DNA from: Alcanivorax sp. 1008
Lineage (GTDB): Bacteria > Pseudomonadota > Gammaproteobacteria > Pseudomonadales > Alcanivoracaceae
Length of the DNA stretch: 64,000 bases
Reading direction: 5' to 3'
Assembly (NCBI RefSeq): GCF_020667895.1
Contig: NZ_JAFMPS010000004.1
Span: 62,001 to 126,000, forward strand
Under the pieces are notes generated by a model. That model searched no databases. It was not told where the DNA came from and saw nothing but the letters and a program-made list of their open reading frames with translations. The translations under genes were made by a program, and so were the position numbers. Positions 52,973-60,895 of this stretch are shown piece after piece; the stretch's first letter is position 1; each line of letters opens with the position of its first letter.

Positions 52973-53941
52973 TCAGCCCTGAGACAGCAGCTGGCGCAAA
53001 TCAAGCAACGCCGCATTGGCCCGGGAAATATAGTTAGCCATCACCAGAGAGTGGTTAGCCAACACGCCGAAGCCCGAGCCATTCAGAATAATCGGGCTCC
53101 AGATGGTTTCCTGAGTGCCCTCCAGTTCGCGAATAACCTGCTGGTAGCTAACCATCGCGTTCTTCTTGGCCAGCACATCAGCAAAATCATGCTCTGCTGC
53201 CCTGAGAAAATGGATCAACGCCCAGCAACCACCTCGGGCCTCGTAGAAAACATCATCAATATCCATCCACGGAGTTTTTTCACGCTTGCTATCAACCTGC
53301 CCCTCAATGGCCTCCTGGCCAACACTCTGGCTGAGCTGCTGGGACATGGCACCGAGCCGATTCTGAACATCTCCCAGCCAATAGGACAGATTATCCGCCC
53401 GGGCATAGAAGCGTGACTCATTTTCACCCAGCCGGGACCGATAACGTTTCAGCGCATCGATACCGCGTCGGTACTCCCGCTCGGTGGCAGGGATGGCCCA
53501 GCTGGCGTTATCAAAGTTGAACTGTGGCTCGGCCCTCATCAGGTCGGCGTCGTCTTCGCTCTGTGATTGAGAGCGGCTCATATCACGGCGCATCACCCGG
53601 GTCATGTCACGGATTTGCACCACCACACCAAACTCCCAGCTAGGCATATTATCCAGCCATAACCGGTGCGGCAGCATGTCGTTGCTAAGATAGCCACCCG
53701 GCTTATCTAGCAGGGTTTCAGCAACCATGATCAGAGCCGACGTGGTGGCATCGCCAGTCACAGCATCCGGCACCACCTCCACCACTACCAGATCCGGCTC
53801 CTGGCTCCAGTACCATCCCAGCCCGGCATCCACCAGCAACAACAGGACTATCAACGCCACCGCTGCCCGCCAGACGCGGTTATTACCCGGGTCCAGCAAT
53901 CTATCGCCCACCGTCTCGGTCATATTGTCTGGAAGTTTCAT
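52973..53941 (-). CDS. DUF2333 family membrane-anchored protein
   Basis: The 322-residue protein has one N-terminal membrane helix (about 25-47) and a periplasmic helical domain with G-G-Y-L-S-N-D, P-S-W-E-F-G-V-V-V-Q-I-R-D and F-Y-E-A-R-G, matching DUF2333. AGGAG precedes the ATG by five bases. It follows the sensor kinase by 30 bases on the same strand and may be read from the same transcript. Function unknown. Confidence 0.87.
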   Translation of the reverse strand: MKLPDNMTETVGDRLLDPGNNRVWRAAVALIVLLLLVDAGLGWYWSQEPDLVVVEVVPDAVTGDATTSALIMVAETLLDKPGGYLSNDMLPHRLWLDNMPSWEFGVVVQIRDMTRVMRRDMSRSQSQSEDDADLMRAEPQFNFDNASWAIPATEREYRRGIDALKRYRSRLGENESRFYARADNLSYWLGDVQNRLGAMSQQLSQSVGQEAIEGQVDSKREKTPWMDIDDVFYEARGGCWALIHFLRAAEHDFADVLAKKNAMVSYQQVIRELEGTQETIWSPIILNGSGFGVLANHSLVMANYISRANAALLDLRQLLSQG

Positions 53942-53971: not shown

Positions 53972-55327
53972 CTAGACTACCCCAGAGGCCTCAACGACAA
54001 CAGGCAAACGAATCACCACCGCCGCCGGCTGCCCATCCTGACGGGGCTGAAAACTGATTTCGCCGCCACAGCACTCAACGATTCTGCGCACTATAGATAG
54101 CCCCAGTCCGGTACCTGACACGCCATGGTCACCACGCAAAAAACGCTCTCCCTCACGACCTGCCATTTGCGCAGGCATGCCCGGGCCTCCGTCCTCAACG
54201 CGCAGATCTAACATCCCTCGGTCTACCGTTGCCTTAACCACAATCAGGCTGCCAGATGGCGAATAGCGAATGGCATTATCAACCAGGTTACGCAACAGCG
54301 TGGCAAGCAGCTCCGAATCCAGCCGAACCTCTACCTGCTCAACACCCTCAGGCTCCAGAGCTAACTCCTGTTCGGCAGAATCGGCGTGGGGGAGCATGTC
54401 TGCCAGCACTTGACGCAGTACCGGCATCACAGCAACAGGGCGACTTTCAACCGCTATATCTGCATCCAAACGGGCGAGAAACAGCAGCTGCTTGACCGTA
54501 CGAGCTGCCCGATCGATTCCTGCCTGCAACTGATCGAGGGCATGGCCCCGCTCCGCCGTTGACTCAGCCCTCTTCGCATTTTCTGCGTGCAGCCGCAGAA
54601 TGCTGAGCAACGTGCGTAGCTCATGGGCGGAGTCATCAGTGAAGCGCTTCTCCCTTGCCAGCACTTCATCAATACGCGCCAACAGTCGATTGAGCTCCCT
54701 GACAAACAAATGCAGTTCGGCCACGTCACTACCGTACTCAAGGGCTTTCAGGTGGCGCTCGTCACGCTCACGGAGAGCCCGCTCCAGCTCCGCCAATGGG
54801 CGCAAGCCACGGCGCAAAGCCCAAAGCAGGGCGAGAATCAGAAAAGGCCAAACCAGCAGGAATGGGGTTACGATTGCGAGCATTGCCTCATTAGACAACT
54901 CATCACGCACATGTTGCTCTTCGGCCACCATAAGCCATTTGCCATCGCTCAACGGCTGGGAAAATACATGCCAATGGCGCTGTCCCACGGTCTGCACGGA
55001 AACGCCAGGCACCAGGGGGCCCAGCACTTCATCCAGCGCCACTGATGTGCTGAACAATAGCTCACCCTGGGCAGAAACATGCTGCACTGCCACGTAGCGC
55101 TCATAGCTATGCCCGGGCGCGGGCAAGACACGCACCGTCAGCGCTGCTTCAGCATCACTTTGCTCCAGCCAGCTGGCCAACAGTCGACCACGCTGAACCA
55201 ACTGGCCATCAAACAGCTCCTCTACCTGGTGTCCGGCAATCCAGTAAACCAGTGAGGTCACAAGAATTCCTGCAGCAAACAGAACCGCCGTCAGGGAAAA
55301 AATAAGAAAGCGTCGAATAGAGAACAT
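53972..55327 (-). CDS. Sensor histidine kinase (QseC/PmrB-like)
   Basis: The 451-residue kinase has two membrane helices (about 7-30 and 150-171) around a periplasmic domain of roughly 115 residues, a HAMP-like linker, the H-box with His235 and a HATPase domain (N-L-V-D-N-A-I-R-Y-S-P, D-G-G-P-G-M, G-T-G-L-G-L-S-I-V). The H-box reads H-E-L-R-T-L-L, with Leu240 replacing the usual Pro. It shares one base with the regulator stop, so the pair is co-translated. Confidence 0.92.
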   Translation of the reverse strand: MFSIRRFLIFSLTAVLFAAGILVTSLVYWIAGHQVEELFDGQLVQRGRLLASWLEQSDAEAALTVRVLPAPGHSYERYVAVQHVSAQGELLFSTSVALDEVLGPLVPGVSVQTVGQRHWHVFSQPLSDGKWLMVAEEQHVRDELSNEAMLAIVTPFLLVWPFLILALLWALRRGLRPLAELERALRERDERHLKALEYGSDVAELHLFVRELNRLLARIDEVLAREKRFTDDSAHELRTLLSILRLHAENAKRAESTAERGHALDQLQAGIDRAARTVKQLLFLARLDADIAVESRPVAVMPVLRQVLADMLPHADSAEQELALEPEGVEQVEVRLDSELLATLLRNLVDNAIRYSPSGSLIVVKATVDRGMLDLRVEDGGPGMPAQMAGREGERFLRGDHGVSGTGLGLSIVRRIVECCGGEISFQPRQDGQPAAVVIRLPVVVEASGVV

Positions 55328-55986
55328 CAGCGTGTCACCAATTGATAACCGACTCCGCGCACGGTGCGAATCAGATCGGTGCCGAGTTTCTTACGCAGGT
55401 GATGGATATGCACTTCCAGAGCGTTACTCTCCACGTCCTCTGACCAGCCATACAACTCTTGCTCCAGGCGATCCCGGGTCAGCACTCGCCCGGCATCACG
55501 TGCCAGCGCCATCAGCAGCACAGTTTCACGACGCGACAGGGCCACCGGCTCACCATTCAAGACCACCTCAAGAGTGTCGCTATTGATCGCCAGCGTCCCC
55601 ACCACAATCTGCTGCACGGGCTGGTCCGCAAGACGTCGCATGCGCGCGCGAATACGGGCGCGCAGTTCATCCATCTCGAAGGGCTTCACCAGATAGTCGT
55701 CGGCCCCTGCATCCAAACCTGCCACACGGTCCGGCAACTGATCGCGGGCAGAAAGAATAAGCACGGGAACCGGGTTATCGCCGGCCCGCAAGCGACGCAG
55801 TGCCTGCATGCCATCCATTCCCGGCAATCCAAGATCTAGCAGCACCAGGTCAAAGTGGCCATTCTTCAGGGCGCCCTCCACCTCACTACCAGAGGTAATC
55901 CAGTCAACGGTGAAATGATCCGCCCGCAAAGCACACTGCAAACCATCACCAAGCAGTTGATCATCTTCGACCAGCAGAATCCGCAT
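55327..55986 (-). CDS. OmpR-family response regulator (QseB/PmrA-like)
   Basis: The 219-residue protein has the receiver acidic pair E7-D8-D9, phosphoacceptor Asp in L-L-D-L-G-L-P-G, the K-P-F switch, and a winged-helix domain (L-S-R-R-E-T, V-E-S-N-A-L-E-V-H-I-H-H-L-R-K-K-L, R-G-V-G-Y). It starts at 55986 after AGGAAC; longer starts extend into ApbE coding sequence. TTAAG-type boxes of the kind bound by this subgroup lie at the operon promoter near 58939-58987. Confidence 0.93.
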   Translation of the reverse strand: MRILLVEDDQLLGDGLQCALRADHFTVDWITSGSEVEGALKNGHFDLVLLDLGLPGMDGMQALRRLRAGDNPVPVLILSARDQLPDRVAGLDAGADDYLVKPFEMDELRARIRARMRRLADQPVQQIVVGTLAINSDTLEVVLNGEPVALSRRETVLLMALARDAGRVLTRDRLEQELYGWSEDVESNALEVHIHHLRKKLGTDLIRTVRGVGYQLVTR

Positions 55987-56008
55987 TACCTGTTCCTCTT
56001 GATACTGA

Positions 56009-56887
56009 CTAGTCCCAAAGACCCCAATAGCGCACATTCTGGGCCTGCAAAAAGGCCTCGGCATCTTTTCCACGCAGCAACGCCAGAGTGGCCAACATCC
56101 CGGCCTCGGTACAACGGGCAGCGACCACAGTAATGGAATGTGGTCCGCCCTCCACCGGCCAACCACTGAGCGGATCAAGAATATGACTATAGCGTTTGCC
56201 GGCGCGCAGCAGAAAACGGCGGGTATCGCCGCTGGTGGCGACGGCGCCCTGGCTCAGGGATATCTGCCCGGCCACGCCGTCATTACGAAGATTTTCAATG
56301 CCAACCTGCCATGGCTTTTGTGCGCAAGCGACCAAGTCGCCGCCAAAATTGATAAGCAGGTCAACGGAGGTGTGCTGACGGGCAAGCAACAGCGCCCGAT
56401 CAACCGCATACTCTTTACCGATGCCACCCAGATCGACCTCCATGCCGGCGGGCATACGCAAACGGCCTTGCTCTCTCTCAACCTTATCCCAGCCGATCAG
56501 CGGTAATAGCTGCGCCACTTCCTCAGCGGAAGGAATTCTGTCGGAGCCGTCAAAGCGCCAAACCCGGCGCAACACTCCGGAGGTGATATCGAAGCGGCCG
56601 TCACTGAGTTGCCAGCAGCTATGGGCGTAATCCAGCAAGCGTTCCAGCTCGTCGTCCAGCTCCACCCACTCGCCATTGGCGTCACGGATCCGGGCAATGA
56701 TGTTGTCATCCCGATAACGGGAAAAGCGCTGCTCGACTCGCCAGGCTTCCGCCGCCACCAGATCGGTTACATGCTGGGCAAGCACCCTGCTGACATCACG
56801 CAACTGCACCTCGCAAGGGCTGGCCATGGCTTCAAATCGGCCAATCCAGCCCTCGCGGGTGCGACTCAGTCGGGTTTCTCCGGCCAT
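56009..56887 (-). CDS. ApbE-like FAD:protein FMN transferase, no visible signal peptide
   Basis: ApbE enzymes attach FMN covalently to Ser/Thr of target proteins. The 292-residue protein has D-L-G-G-I-G-K-E-Y-A-V-D, L-L-I-N-F-G-G-D-L, G-A-V-A-T-S-G and H-I-L-D-P-L-S-G-W-P-V. The N-terminus is charged, without a lipoprotein or Sec signal, and no longer start is available, which points to a cytosolic enzyme unlike most ApbE. No FMN-binding domain or D-x-x-S/T-G-A-S/T site is visible in its neighbours, so the target is unknown. Confidence 0.9.
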   Translation of the reverse strand: MAGETRLSRTREGWIGRFEAMASPCEVQLRDVSRVLAQHVTDLVAAEAWRVEQRFSRYRDDNIIARIRDANGEWVELDDELERLLDYAHSCWQLSDGRFDITSGVLRRVWRFDGSDRIPSAEEVAQLLPLIGWDKVEREQGRLRMPAGMEVDLGGIGKEYAVDRALLLARQHTSVDLLINFGGDLVACAQKPWQVGIENLRNDGVAGQISLSQGAVATSGDTRRFLLRAGKRYSHILDPLSGWPVEGGPHSITVVAARCTEAGMLATLALLRGKDAEAFLQAQNVRYWGLWD

Positions 56888-56901
56888 CGCCCCATCTCTG
56901 C

Positions 56902-58200
56902 TTACCAGTAGAAGCGATAGCCTACCTGACCAATCACGGCACTGACATCCGCAGCATCGGTGTCACCGGATTGTTGCATGAACTCAAGTCGTGTATCCCA
57001 CCTGCGTCCATTAGCCAGCTCGCGACCAAACTTCACCCCTACGGTGGTATCGGTCAGCTTGCCAAGGCGGTAATCACCACTGGCGTAATCGTTACTGGCC
57101 ACAATCGCGTTATAGTCGACCTCGGTGAGGGACTCATACCAGAAGTCCGCCTCGGTCTGGGTGTAGTAGCGCACGTGTGGCTGAACGAACCAGCCGTTCT
57201 CCAGCTGCCAGCGATACTTCAAGTCGAGGGTATGAGAGCTGATGCCCCAGTCATCGGTCATAAACCGATAACCGACAGCAATCACATCATCGTTCTCTCT
57301 GGAATAGCGGTTCTCCCAGTAAAGTGCATGCTTGGTGCGCGAATCTGGACGCAGCTCATAAACCTGACCATCGCCAGGGCCAATGTTCGCGCCGCCGAGA
57401 TCTTCCGCCTCCAGAGGCAGCCCGGTCAATTCGTCAATCAGTGTCACCACCTTGTAGGGGTCTGTCATATAACCGCTAGCCGCTGACACATTGTAGTTCA
57501 GCTGCATGATCCAGCGACGGTTCATGACCTGTGTCCAGCCCAGCAATGCATCAGTTACTGTGCGAGACTCACTGCTGTCCAGACGCAAACCGTCGCTCTG
57601 CAGGGTCAACGGGTCAGGCACACCTCCAACCGGCTCGATGGTGTCGCTTTCCAGGCCAAGCAGGAATGAAAGTGTGGTGTTTTTCTGATTCAGATCCAGG
57701 CTCAGACCCGCATTGGCACCGACCGAGAAGAAGTCATATTCATTGGAAAAATTCAGCCCGCTGGTAGCCCGCAGGTTGCGATTAAGCAGCCAGCTGTACT
57801 GGGCGCTCACCGCCACACGGGTGTCCTTGAATGAGTCATCCAGAGGCACATCACCGGCATTAACCTGATAGACGTCTTTACCCGACGGACTGGTAAAGGT
57901 TTGTGGCGCCCCCAACACTGCGGCACCGTTATGTGAATTGCCAGTCAGGGAGTCCACCGTCAACTTCAGATCCAGTTTACTTTCGTTCTCGAAAGTACGG
58001 CTGGCTTTAATGACAGGCTCAATCGCAGAAACACGATCGGTTTCCGAGTAGAGCAACATAGTGCCGTCTACTTTCCACTGATCCGTTGGCGCATCCGCTG
58101 CCAGTGCAGGCACGCCCAGCAAAGCGCAGCTGGCCAGCGCCAGAGTCTTGGCCACAGAGCCGGCACAAGCCATTGATTGATTTTGCTTTTTCAGTTGCAT
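56902..58200 (-). CDS. DUF3570 outer-membrane beta-barrel protein
   Basis: The 432-residue protein has a signal peptide (cleavage near A-L-A, residue 35), then alternating beta-strand patterns to a C-terminal G-Y-R-F-Y-W, the aromatic end recognised by the BAM machinery. Motifs match DUF3570 (F-T-S-P-S-G-K, Y-D-F-F-S-V-G, W-E-N-R-Y-S-R). Its ATG lies 10 bases inside the DUF4266 gene, and its Shine-Dalgarno GGAGGTGG is part of the DUF4266 C-terminal codons. Probably a pore or assembly partner for the small lipoprotein. Confidence 0.88.
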   Translation of the reverse strand: MQLKKQNQSMACAGSVAKTLALASCALLGVPALAADAPTDQWKVDGTMLLYSETDRVSAIEPVIKASRTFENESKLDLKLTVDSLTGNSHNGAAVLGAPQTFTSPSGKDVYQVNAGDVPLDDSFKDTRVAVSAQYSWLLNRNLRATSGLNFSNEYDFFSVGANAGLSLDLNQKNTTLSFLLGLESDTIEPVGGVPDPLTLQSDGLRLDSSESRTVTDALLGWTQVMNRRWIMQLNYNVSAASGYMTDPYKVVTLIDELTGLPLEAEDLGGANIGPGDGQVYELRPDSRTKHALYWENRYSRENDDVIAVGYRFMTDDWGISSHTLDLKYRWQLENGWFVQPHVRYYTQTEADFWYESLTEVDYNAIVASNDYASGDYRLGKLTDTTVGVKFGRELANGRRWDTRLEFMQQSGDTDAADVSAVIGQVGYRFYW

Positions 58201-58412
58201 CCGCAGCCACCTCCACCAAATCCACGACCACCACTGGAGCCTTCCTTGGAGAAGTAGATATGGTCATCAAAGGCATCATCGAGACCGTCCGCTTCACCGG
58301 GAATCATCGCTTCACGAGCCAGCACATCACGCTCCCAGGGATTTACCCCAAGATTCTGACAACCGGCCAGTACCAGCAGACAACTTGCTGCCACAATTAA
58401 ACGCATCATCAT
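58191..58412 (-). CDS. DUF4266 small lipoprotein with GGGCGCN C-terminus
   Basis: This 73-residue protein has a lipobox L-A-G-C (Cys18) and the DUF4266 signature P-W-E-R-D-V-L-A, H-I-Y-F-S-K-E and a Gly-rich tail ending G-G-G-C-G-C-N. The tail could bind metal or be a thiol substrate of the TlpA thioredoxin encoded just before. The ATG overlaps the tlpA stop in ATGA. Outer-membrane lipidation is likely as residue +2 is Gln. Confidence 0.9.
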   Translation of the reverse strand: MMMRLIVAASCLLVLAGCQNLGVNPWERDVLAREAMIPGEADGLDDAFDDHIYFSKEGSSGGRGFGGGGCGCN

Positions 58413-58897
58413 TTCTGCTCCTCCAGCAGCCGGCGCAGCCCGGCTTCATATTCATCAGTACGATCAGCACGGAAGCCAATATGGCGGGCCAACTCCTTAC
58501 CATCCGGGCCAATCATCACGGCGGAGGGCATACCTTGTAGCTGATACTGCTCTGCTAATCCGCCGGCAGGGTCCATCACTAAAGTAAAGTGGGCTGCATG
58601 GTCGGCCAGAAAACGTTCTGCATCTGCGTGACGACGATCAACATTAATTCCGACAATTTTCAGTCCCTGTGCGGCATACTTCGCCTGCATCTCATTCAAC
58701 CAGGGGAAGGACTGTCGGCAGGGCACGCACCAGCTGGCCCAGAAATCCAGATAGATAACCTTTGCCTCCGGATACAGTGCCGGGGAAAATTGTTCCGCCG
58801 ACAGTTCCTGCTCAGCCGACAATGCGGGCAGCGCAGCACCCGCCACAATAAGGGCGATAAAGACATTCAAGGTTCTTATAAAACGTAGTCGACGCAT
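58409..58897 (-). CDS. TlpA-like periplasmic thioredoxin
   Basis: The 162-residue protein has a signal peptide (to about 28) and a thioredoxin fold with W-A-S-W-C57-V-P-C60 and the cis-Pro segment G-M-P-S-A. TlpA-type proteins reduce disulfides in the periplasm, using electrons from DsbD, whose gene lies divergently next door. The ATG at 58897, with GGAG eight bases upstream, is chosen over TTG at 58909. It heads the six-gene operon. Confidence 0.9.
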   Translation of the reverse strand: MRRLRFIRTLNVFIALIVAGAALPALSAEQELSAEQFSPALYPEAKVIYLDFWASWCVPCRQSFPWLNEMQAKYAAQGLKIVGINVDRRHADAERFLADHAAHFTLVMDPAGGLAEQYQLQGMPSAVMIGPDGKELARHIGFRADRTDEYEAGLRRLLEEQK

Positions 58898-58920
58898 GAT
58901 GGGCTCCAATTCAGACAGCC

Positions 58921-59003
58921 CCAGTTTCAGCCGGCTGCCTTAACGCAATCTTAAGGACCTGTCCGCCACTGTTAAGATAGCGTTAAGCGAAGTTACGGAA
59001 ACT
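58921..59003. promoter_or_regulatory. Divergent promoter region with two PmrA/QseB-type boxes
   Basis: Between tlpA and dsbD, GTTAAG-N5-GTTAAG stands at 58971-58987 on the plus strand and CTTAAG-N5-GTTAAG at 58955-58939 on the minus strand, 15 bases apart. Exactly 10 bases beyond each box, in its own direction, comes GAAACT (58998-59003 plus; 58928-58923 minus). Direct TTAAG repeats with an 11-bp period are the known site type of PmrA/QseB regulators. GAAACT is a weak -10 (3 of 6). Confidence 0.7.
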
Positions 59004-59047
59004 TGTCCACTACCGGGATGTCCACCGGGTCGACAACGGAGACACTG

Positions 59048-60895
59048 ATGTACAGATTTTTACTCGCCATCGCCGCCAGCATGCTTCTGCTTATGGGGCA
59101 GGTTCACGGCAGCCCCTTTACAGGCACTCAAGACGATATCCCGCTGGCCAGCGATGCCATGCAGGTAAGTGCCTTTGCGGAGCCTGAGCAGCAGCAGATC
59201 CGTGTAGTAGTAGACCTTTACCCGGGCGTTTACCTTTATCAGCACAGCCTGGGCCTGCGCCTGCTGGATGAAAACGGCAACCTTCTGAGTGACTTTGCTG
59301 ACTTTCAGCCCCCCGCCGGCAAAGCCAAGGTCGATGAGATATTTGGCAACGTAGAGGTCTATTACGACCAACTGGAATTCACTGTTTCCCTGGATAGCGT
59401 GCCCCTGGTGGCCACAGTGCTGGAGCTGGACCACCAAGGTTGCCTGGAGAATGTGCTGTGCTACACCCCGCAAACTGCTCGCATTCCGCTGGTATTCGTT
59501 GCCAAGCCAGAGCCGGTGGCAGTTACCGCCAGCAGCGCTCAGGTCAGCTTTATGGATACACTCACTTCAGACAGTGCCGGCGCGTTCAGTGACTGGATGG
59601 GCAGCCACGGCCTCGGCATGGTGCTACTACTGTTTTTTGCCGGCGGCCTGCTGCTCGCTTTCACCCCCTGTGTTTTCCCCATGATTCCAATTCTATCCGG
59701 AATTATCGCCGGCGCTGATAATCCTGGAGCAGGTCGCGGCTTCATGCTTAGCAGTGCCTATGTGCTCGGCGTGGCCGTTCCCTATACCATCGCCGGCCTG
59801 CTGGTCGCCATGTTTGGTGCCGGCATGAACCTGCAGTACATACTCCAGCAACCGGCTGCCATTATTGTTTCGACCATCATCTTTGTGGTGCTGGCGCTGG
59901 CCATGTTCGGCCTTTACGAGCTGCAACTGCCAGCCGCGCTGCGCAACCGACTTAACTCCATGGGCGAAGGTCGCAACGGCGGATCGCTTTGGGGCGCCGG
60001 ACTGATTGGCGCAATTTCCGCATTGGTGGTATCCCCTTGTGTGACCCCGATTCTGGCCGGTGCACTGGTCTACGTTGCTGCCAGCGGCGATGCACTTACC
60101 GGCGCACTTAGCCTGTTTGCGCTATCCATGGGCATGGGTTTTCCGCTGATTATGTTCGGTACCGGAGGCGGACATTTGCTGCCTAAAGCCGGCGCCTGGA
60201 TGGAAGATATCAAACGCTTTTTCGGCGTGCTGATGCTCGGCGTGGCCGTCTGGCTGCTTGGCCGGGTGATACCAGCCAGCCTGACCCTGGCACTGTACGG
60301 CCTGTTGCTGACCAGCTACGGAGTCTGGCTTGGCGCACTGGAACCGGTTCAGGCCGGACAGTCACGGCTTAAGAAAACTCTGGCTCTGGTGATGGCACTA
60401 TACGGCGCAATCATGCTGGTGGGGGCCGCTGGTGGTGGCACTGACCCGCTACAACCGCTTGATCGACCGGCCGCTGTTGCAGAGGTCGGTACGGCCGCTA
60501 CTGCAGCGCACGGGGCATGGCTGAAGGTTAAGGGTTCAGATGCATTACAGCAGCAGCTGGATCAGGCCCGGCGCGACGGCCAGCCGGTGCTGGTGGACTT
60601 TTATGCCGACTGGTGCGCGGCCTGCAAGGTTCTGGAGGAGAAGACCCTTAACCAGAGCGATGTGCTTGCAGCTCTGGCAACCCGGAACTACCGCCTGATC
60701 AAGGCCGATATTACCGAAGTCAACCGTGACAACCAGGGGATCATGCAGCGATTTGGCATTATCGGCCTGCCTTGCCTGATTTTCTTTGATAGTGATGGCA
60801 ATGAGGTCGCTGGTAGCCGCATATTAGGTGAAATGGGACCAGAGTCCTTCGTTTTACACCTGAAAACGAAGGTATCTGCAGCGAACACGCAGTGA
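59048..60895 (+). CDS. dsbD: Thiol:disulfide interchange protein DsbD
   Basis: DsbD carries electrons from cytosolic thioredoxin to periplasmic thiol proteins. The 615-residue protein has a signal peptide, an N-terminal domain with Cys132/Cys138, a membrane core with Cys208 (T-P-C-V-F-P) and Cys331 (S-P-C-V-T-P), and a C-terminal thioredoxin domain with C523-A-A-C526. The ATG at 59048 sits before the signal peptide; upstream in-frame residues are not signal-like. Divergent from the tlpA operon with a shared regulatory region; aroQ-accB-accC-prmA follow as in Pseudomonas. Confidence 0.95.
   Translation: MYRFLLAIAASMLLLMGQVHGSPFTGTQDDIPLASDAMQVSAFAEPEQQQIRVVVDLYPGVYLYQHSLGLRLLDENGNLLSDFADFQPPAGKAKVDEIFGNVEVYYDQLEFTVSLDSVPLVATVLELDHQGCLENVLCYTPQTARIPLVFVAKPEPVAVTASSAQVSFMDTLTSDSAGAFSDWMGSHGLGMVLLLFFAGGLLLAFTPCVFPMIPILSGIIAGADNPGAGRGFMLSSAYVLGVAVPYTIAGLLVAMFGAGMNLQYILQQPAAIIVSTIIFVVLALAMFGLYELQLPAALRNRLNSMGEGRNGGSLWGAGLIGAISALVVSPCVTPILAGALVYVAASGDALTGALSLFALSMGMGFPLIMFGTGGGHLLPKAGAWMEDIKRFFGVLMLGVAVWLLGRVIPASLTLALYGLLLTSYGVWLGALEPVQAGQSRLKKTLALVMALYGAIMLVGAAGGGTDPLQPLDRPAAVAEVGTAATAAHGAWLKVKGSDALQQQLDQARRDGQPVLVDFYADWCAACKVLEEKTLNQSDVLAALATRNYRLIKADITEVNRDNQGIMQRFGIIGLPCLIFFDSDGNEVAGSRILGEMGPESFVLHLKTKVSAANTQ

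Follow-up and report, generated by a model that had tools for sequence, protein, structure and literature searches.

A DsbD-linked DUF3570/DUF4266/ApbE flavinylation locus in Alcanivorax and its proposed control by a PmrA-like two-component system

The window analysed here is a 64,000-nucleotide stretch of DNA from Alcanivorax sp. 1008, an oil-associated marine bacterium. Its minus strand carries, in this order, genes for a TlpA-like thioredoxin, a DUF4266 lipoprotein, a DUF3570 protein, the flavin transferase ApbE, a response regulator and a histidine kinase, all divergent from dsbD. We interpret the locus as a DUF3570/DUF4266/ApbE "DsbD system" belonging to a branch under its own PmrA-like two-component system, in which a relay from DsbD through TlpA, a CxC motif and flavin mononucleotide (FMN) would reach the cell surface on a protein flavinylated before export; taken as a whole, the case for this interpretation appears to us evenly balanced. 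Sequence comparison establishes the gene set and its synteny, the link between promoter boxes and regulator, the flavinylation motif, the missing signal peptide and active-site exchange of the linked ApbE, and the invariance of the CxC end; the order of electron transfer, flavinylation before export, the acceptor and the signal are what we infer.

Layout and conservation of the locus

The features discussed below are as follows, in window coordinates.

59048..60895, plus strand: dsbD, inner-membrane thiol reductase (Pfam DsbD_TM, 2.6e-82, with DsbD_N and Thioredoxin_7; NCBIfam PRK00293 over cut-off)
58972..58987, plus strand: PmrA-type box for dsbD, TTAAGATAGCGTTAAG, kept in most of 13 family loci
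58939..58954, minus strand: PmrA-type box for the tlpA operon, TTAAGATTGCGTTAAG (TTAA-N7-TTAA lies 5' of the first gene in 50/53 regulator-bearing loci)
58409..58897, minus strand: tlpA-like periplasmic thioredoxin with CVPC active site and signal peptide (Pfam Redoxin/AhpC-TSA/Thioredoxin_8)
58191..58412, minus strand: DUF4266 small lipoprotein with lipobox LAGC, Gln at +2 and a Gly-rich C-terminus (Pfam DUF4266, 6.7e-21)
58194..58208, minus strand: DUF4266 C-terminal GCGCN (CxC), its last codons overlapping the DUF3570 start (ATGCAACTGA)
56902..58200, minus strand: DUF3570, ApbE substrate, predicted 16-strand outer-membrane barrel (Pfam 1.1e-113; AlphaFold2; fold matches)
57934..57954, minus strand: flavinylation motif DSLTGNS, residues 83-89, predicted FMN acceptor Ser89 (consensus from PMC12052999)
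56009..56887, minus strand: apbE, flavin transferase without signal peptide (Pfam ApbE, 1.2e-66), with Glu159 and Gly263 replacing the usual Gly and Mg-binding Asp
56411..56413, minus strand: codon of ApbE Glu159, usually Gly in AKGY (alignment)
56099..56101, minus strand: codon of ApbE Gly263, at the position of FmnB Asp301 and Vibrio cholerae Asp285 (alignment to solved ApbEs)
55327..55986, minus strand: PmrA/QseB-like response regulator (Pfam Response_reg and Trans_reg_C)
53972..55327, minus strand: QseC/PmrB-like sensor histidine kinase (Pfam HisKA and HATPase_c), sensor domain free of cysteine
52973..53941, minus strand: DUF2333 (Pfam 4.8e-138), 30 bases after the kinase

The minus-strand genes are closely packed, with overlaps of 4 bases between tlpA and DUF4266, 10 between DUF4266 and DUF3570 and 1 between regulator and kinase, and with gaps of 14 bases before apbE and 22 after it. 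The start codons of dsbD (ATG 59048) and tlpA (ATG 58897) leave 150 bases between them, a figure that assumes the former start; TTG 59003 is an alternative. All six genes and dsbD exceed the Pfam cut-offs for their assigned families, and the dsbD product begins with a signal-like N-terminus, MYRFLLAIAASMLLLMGQVHG. A preliminary description, made from the DNA alone, of six tightly spaced minus-strand genes facing dsbD is thereby confirmed in its coordinates, open reading frames (ORFs) and gene identities.

The same divergent order, dsbD on one side and tlpA, DUF4266, DUF3570, apbE, regulator and kinase on the other, recurs in every one of the 13 Alcanivoracaceae loci that have a full-length DUF3570 and therefore does not reflect chance. 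In the same 13 loci the kinase is directly followed by DUF2333, which may be a seventh operon gene, and aroQ-accB lies on the far side of dsbD. In one of them, from an Alcanivorax genome (L042:7493-8865), DUF3570 lies in two frames with the remaining operon present, possibly as a pseudogene or through a sequencing error. The closest named relative of the window DUF3570, at 97% identity, belongs to an Alcanivoracaceae metagenome-assembled genome. Across roughly 100 gammaproteobacterial DUF3570 loci, DUF4266 stands immediately 5' of DUF3570 with about two exceptions, usually preceded by a TlpA-like gene; the pair DUF4266-DUF3570 forms the invariant core of these loci. The preliminary description had proposed a single envelope redox module including DsbD and had named random co-occurrence across genomes as the result that would count against it. 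The survey recovered no such randomness, and the synteny in the 13 family loci and the wider set of gammaproteobacterial loci, together with published clusters (PMC8238504), supports one conserved module.

These published clusters provide the closest known system. Méheust and colleagues described 285 "DsbD" flavinylation clusters, typically comprising ApbE, DUF3570, a thioredoxin-like protein and DUF4266, found that DUF3570 of Chlorobium luteolum is flavinylated by its own ApbE, and proposed a hybrid thioredoxin/flavin relay (Méheust et al., 2021, eLife; PMC8238504). The window locus shares ApbE, DUF3570, a thioredoxin-like protein and DUF4266 with its CxC end, as well as a divergent DsbD. In the literature searched, that paper alone names DUF3570 or DUF4266; a term search of it gave no hit for a two-component kinase, a promoter box or a barrel, and the missing signal peptide and active-site exchange described below were not met in it. 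The core gene set and the partner of ApbE are therefore already known, and it is the two-component link, the features of the linked ApbE and the barrel prediction that go beyond the published account.

In several Alteromonadales, the operon continues past the regulator and kinase into genes for a cupredoxin, a membrane protein and an outer-membrane protein, and a promoter box of the type described below precedes tlpA there too. This extension may point to metal. Such genes, encoding a cupredoxin, a 260-aa membrane protein without a match in a Pfam search, and a small protein resembling outer-membrane proteins, accompany the same two-component and DUF3570 genes at L247:11198-14986 and also in L248, L251, L256 and L138. 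ZrgA zinc-uptake genes occur near the locus in Marinobacter.

A predicted flavinylated barrel, its lipoprotein partner and an unusual ApbE

The preliminary description had ApbE flavinylating an unknown partner. This is out of date, because DUF3570 is a published ApbE substrate, and the window protein itself carries an acceptor motif. The published ApbE acceptor consensus is D-x-x-[S/T]-G-A-[S/T] (PMC12052999); in the window motif, DSLTGNS, the acceptor Ser is kept and the consensus Ala is Asn. A motif search that was strict on the acceptor Ser/Thr but allowed any residue before it was matched in 151 of 153 loci. Among the loci examined, Asn before the acceptor (TGNS) is confined to the genus of the window. 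The C. luteolum protein has two [S/T]GA[S/T] motifs, whereas the window DUF3570 has the single TGNS and reads NGAA at the second site.

The AlphaFold2 model of DUF3570, built from 45 sequences (mean predicted local distance difference test score, pLDDT, 88.4), has 16 long strands, with the long loops 87-124, 189-210, 244-286 and 349-381 all on one side. The predicted structure is closed, has an even number of strands (16) and ends in Trp, as an outer-membrane barrel should, and it was matched by Foldseek and VIA-align to outer-membrane barrels, of porin type and OmpG. Neither program returned a fold relative standing out beyond general barrels, and a sequence search found no solved DUF3570 structure. 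The model agrees with the earlier proposal that DUF3570 is a barrel and specifies it as a 16-strand outer-membrane barrel. If both chain ends are periplasmic, like those of the aligned porins and OmpG, the long-loop side is extracellular, which would place Ser89 among the first residues of loop 2 and at the extracellular barrel end. Loop 2 is highly conserved (3.11 bits). A concentration of conservation in the extracellular loops as a class was also considered, and is not borne out by the comparison of loops with strands (2.86 vs 2.85 bits, p 0.44).

The lipoprotein encoded immediately upstream ends in CxC-x in all 152 DUF4266 homologues, with GCGCN in the window. Asp at +2 is found in none of them, and DUF4266 therefore fits sorting to the outer membrane. 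Its stop codon and the DUF3570 start share ATGCAACTGA (58191-58200), so that the terminal Cys-Asn of DUF4266 and the Met-Gln-Leu start of DUF3570 are coded twice. The CxC-Asn end is also retained at loci where the two genes do not overlap. The preliminary description had further suggested that TlpA might keep this cysteine tail reduced and that DUF3570 might host or export the lipoprotein.

The ApbE of this locus departs from the familiar form of the family. Its N-terminus, MAGETRLSRTREGWIGRFEAMASPCE, has neither a signal peptide nor a lipobox, and a hydrophobic N-terminus is found in 0 of 127 DUF3570-linked ApbEs; a signal peptide or lipobox is present in the ApbEs beside a shorter DUF3570 type and in both other ApbEs of the window genome. 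Where FmnB has its Mg-binding Asp301 (PMC8906456), 126 of 129 linked ApbEs have Gly and 6/6 exported controls have Asp; the Gly after Lys in AKGY is Glu in 127 of the 129 and Gly in 6/6 controls. The catalytic-triad residues Ser219 and His235 are retained in every readable linked sequence, and Cys25 is conserved in the alignment of 129. Glu159 may, to judge from this alignment, substitute for the lost carboxylate. Compared with V. cholerae ApbE, Listeria FmnB and the cytosolic ApbE of Klebsiella, the window enzyme is thus a family member with the catalytic Ser and His, but one that has exchanged Asp for Gly and Gly for Glu, has the additional conserved Cys25, and lacks a signal peptide although its target is exported. 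In the available portions of a 2025 ApbE review, cytosolic ApbEs are given only for intracellular targets (PMC12052999).

PmrA-type boxes and the two-component pair

PmrA boxes consist of CTTAAG and xTTAAT half-sites with 5-base spacing (PMC3973317). Boxes of the type CTTAAG-N5-CTTAAG occur twice in the divergent region of the window and of most family loci. A count over the 250 bases upstream of the first gene found TTAA-N7-TTAA in 50 of 53 loci with the regulator vs 25 of 95 without (p 6e-17) and, outside Alcanivoracaceae, in 31 of 34 regulator-bearing loci (p 2e-11); these Fisher p-values are indicative only and overstate independence, because the homologues are related. Other half-site spacings occur in only about two of the 53 regulator-bearing loci. 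At a fixed offset of 10 bases 3' of the box, a -10-like TAnnnT is present in 77% vs a background of 28%. The earlier proposal that the two-component pair belongs with the module therefore gains support, since a spacing-specific PmrA-type box tracks the regulator.

Genome-wide, the window genome and its sister have four perfect boxes each, distributed over three shared loci. Two lie at tlpA/dsbD, one before eptA and one before an operon of gtrA and glycosyltransferase genes. Boxes stand mostly just upstream of genes, while matches to the reversed control pattern are mostly intragenic. A box also lies near the start of the EptA-like genes of three further family genomes. The box-bearing eptA (L121:2503-8152) adjoins a gene for an HMA-domain P-type heavy-metal ATPase and another, short gene, cupredoxin-like by eye. 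The other operon (L122:1348-4166) comprises gtrA, a glycosyltransferase family 2 gene and a PMT-type transferase gene, has the same box in the window and sister genomes, and possibly serves lipid A or surface glycan modification. A box was found 5' of trxB, for thioredoxin reductase, only in three Alcanivorax genomes (L285, L294, L303), with half-sites kept and spacers differing; the direct view of trxB upstream regions left out three genomes, including that of the window. Membership of trxB in the window regulon was rejected, as the genome-wide search showed perfect boxes of the window and sister genomes to be confined to the three loci given above.

The best NCBIfam model for the response regulator is PmrA (240 bits, below the cut-off of 330), and its best PDB match is Klebsiella BasR/PmrA, with VHIH kept in the recognition helix (LEVHIHHLR). 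The window genome has a second regulator, 42% identical to the local one; the local regulator is, on these sequence grounds, the simplest candidate to bind the boxes. The system therefore resembles PmrAB (BasRS) of enteric bacteria in a regulator most like PmrA/QseB, in a recognition helix close to that of PmrA, in boxes with 5-base half-site spacing and in an eptA carrying the same box. It differs in that the regulator falls under the PmrA equivalog cut-off, the QseC-like sensor of about 120 aa lacks ExxE, and the main target here is a redox operon. ExxE is the iron-sensing motif of the PmrAB sensor; with 0 ExxE in the window sensor, iron sensing by this motif was rejected for the present kinase. 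The preliminary description had the pair sensing metal or redox stress. Of these, redox sensing through thiols is unlikely because the window sensor domain contains no cysteine, as is also the case in nearly all relatives, while metal sensing by the kinase is plausible.

Proposed mechanism and competing explanations

In the mechanism we propose, the kinase would detect envelope stress, metal or cationic, and the regulator would bind both PmrA-type boxes and co-induce dsbD and the tlpA operon. Before export, cytosolic ApbE would modify the still unfolded DUF3570 precursor with FMN at Ser89, and DUF3570 would then insert in the outer membrane with its flavin at the extracellular barrel end. Reducing power would pass from DsbD to TlpA and from TlpA to the CxC tail of DUF4266, a lipoprotein in the outer membrane; through the flavin it would then reach a surface acceptor, for example Fe(III) or Cu(II). 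In a more specific form of this idea, the ApbE subfamily is cytosolic, has its catalytic carboxylate relocated and flavinylates the barrel precursor before it crosses the inner membrane, and the surface flavin, reduced by thiol chemistry through DsbD and the CxC lipoprotein, forms a haem-free outer-membrane conduit for electrons under PmrA-type stress control; we put this forward tentatively, and believe it rather less than the general reading. If true, this would amount to a new, haem-free route for electrons across the outer membrane, and each proposed carrier is named, with a conserved residue open to mutation. Replacement of the Mg-binding Asp throughout a subfamily, with cytosolic action on an exported target, would likewise alter the prediction of ApbE substrates. 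The regulator link offers an initial clue to when the system operates and connects it to lipid A modification.

Several observations weigh against this mechanism, beyond the relatedness of the loci behind the box statistics. The window ApbE itself is without the Mg-binding Asp, and in FmnB Ala at Mg-contacting residues greatly reduces or abolishes activity (PMC8906456). TGNS in place of TGAS may leave flavinylation partial or absent in the window genus, by analogy with another protein in which A-to-V at the same motif site lowered flavinylation to about 50% (PMC12052999). The orientation of the barrel is a model prediction, and outside Alcanivoracaceae the DsbD and two-component genes are often not adjacent to the module. 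The first two points raise the alternative that the operon ApbE no longer modifies DUF3570, the flavin step being vestigial or directed at another target. The Asp-to-Gly exchange across the subfamily and TGNS in the window genus would fit it, but the retained Ser219 and His235, the pairing of Asp loss with a conserved Glu throughout the subfamily, and an acceptor Ser/Thr in at least 151 of 153 DUF3570s all speak against it, and we regard this alternative as very unlikely.

An explanation closer to the preliminary description is metal handling: the DUF4266 CxC would bind a metal, for example Cu(I), Zn or Fe, and be kept reduced by DsbD-TlpA, DUF3570 would be a metal-responsive pore, and the flavin would tune metal redox for uptake or detoxification. 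The cupredoxin-containing extension in Alteromonadales, the nearby ZrgA genes in Marinobacter, the box-sharing eptA with its HMA-domain ATPase and cupredoxin-like neighbours, and the VIT1 iron transporters in 25 published clusters (Méheust et al., 2021; PMC8238504) are consistent with such a role. However, a CxC closing a Gly-rich tail would suit thiol exchange too, the window operon has no metal transporter, and the membrane protein beside the cupredoxin has no Pfam match; metal handling is possible, though we doubt it. Less probable again is that the locus serves disulfide homeostasis, the pair raising DsbD/TlpA reducing power in envelope stress with DUF3570 and ApbE as a side function. This would parallel DsbRS of Pseudomonas aeruginosa, a copper-responsive pair that induces dsbDEG (PMC10141476) and resembles the window pair in role, as a two-component system over dsb genes under stress; the trxB boxes of three Alcanivorax genomes would also agree with it. 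But the box tracks the DUF3570 operon, which is the target here, even where dsbD lies elsewhere; the invariant core is DUF4266 and DUF3570; and the window sensor lacks cysteine.

Two further forms of DUF3570 were observed. ORFs of about 900 aa occur in three genomes (L123:7491-10244, L134:6363-9050, L145:7266-10004); a search for a natural fusion found no convincing Pfam domain in their C-terminal extension of about 370 aa. The shorter second type, with the motif D-x-x-S-[SAG]-A-S, has its own tlpA2-DUF4266-DUF3570 cluster in the window genome, outside the window (L043:7149-8961; G000:C60). Its DUF3570 has 375 aa, with SAAS/TTAS in place of the motif and two small genes upstream for proteins resembling outer-membrane proteins. 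The cluster has no adjacent apbE; an exported ApbE is encoded about 10 kb away (L119:4497-5495).

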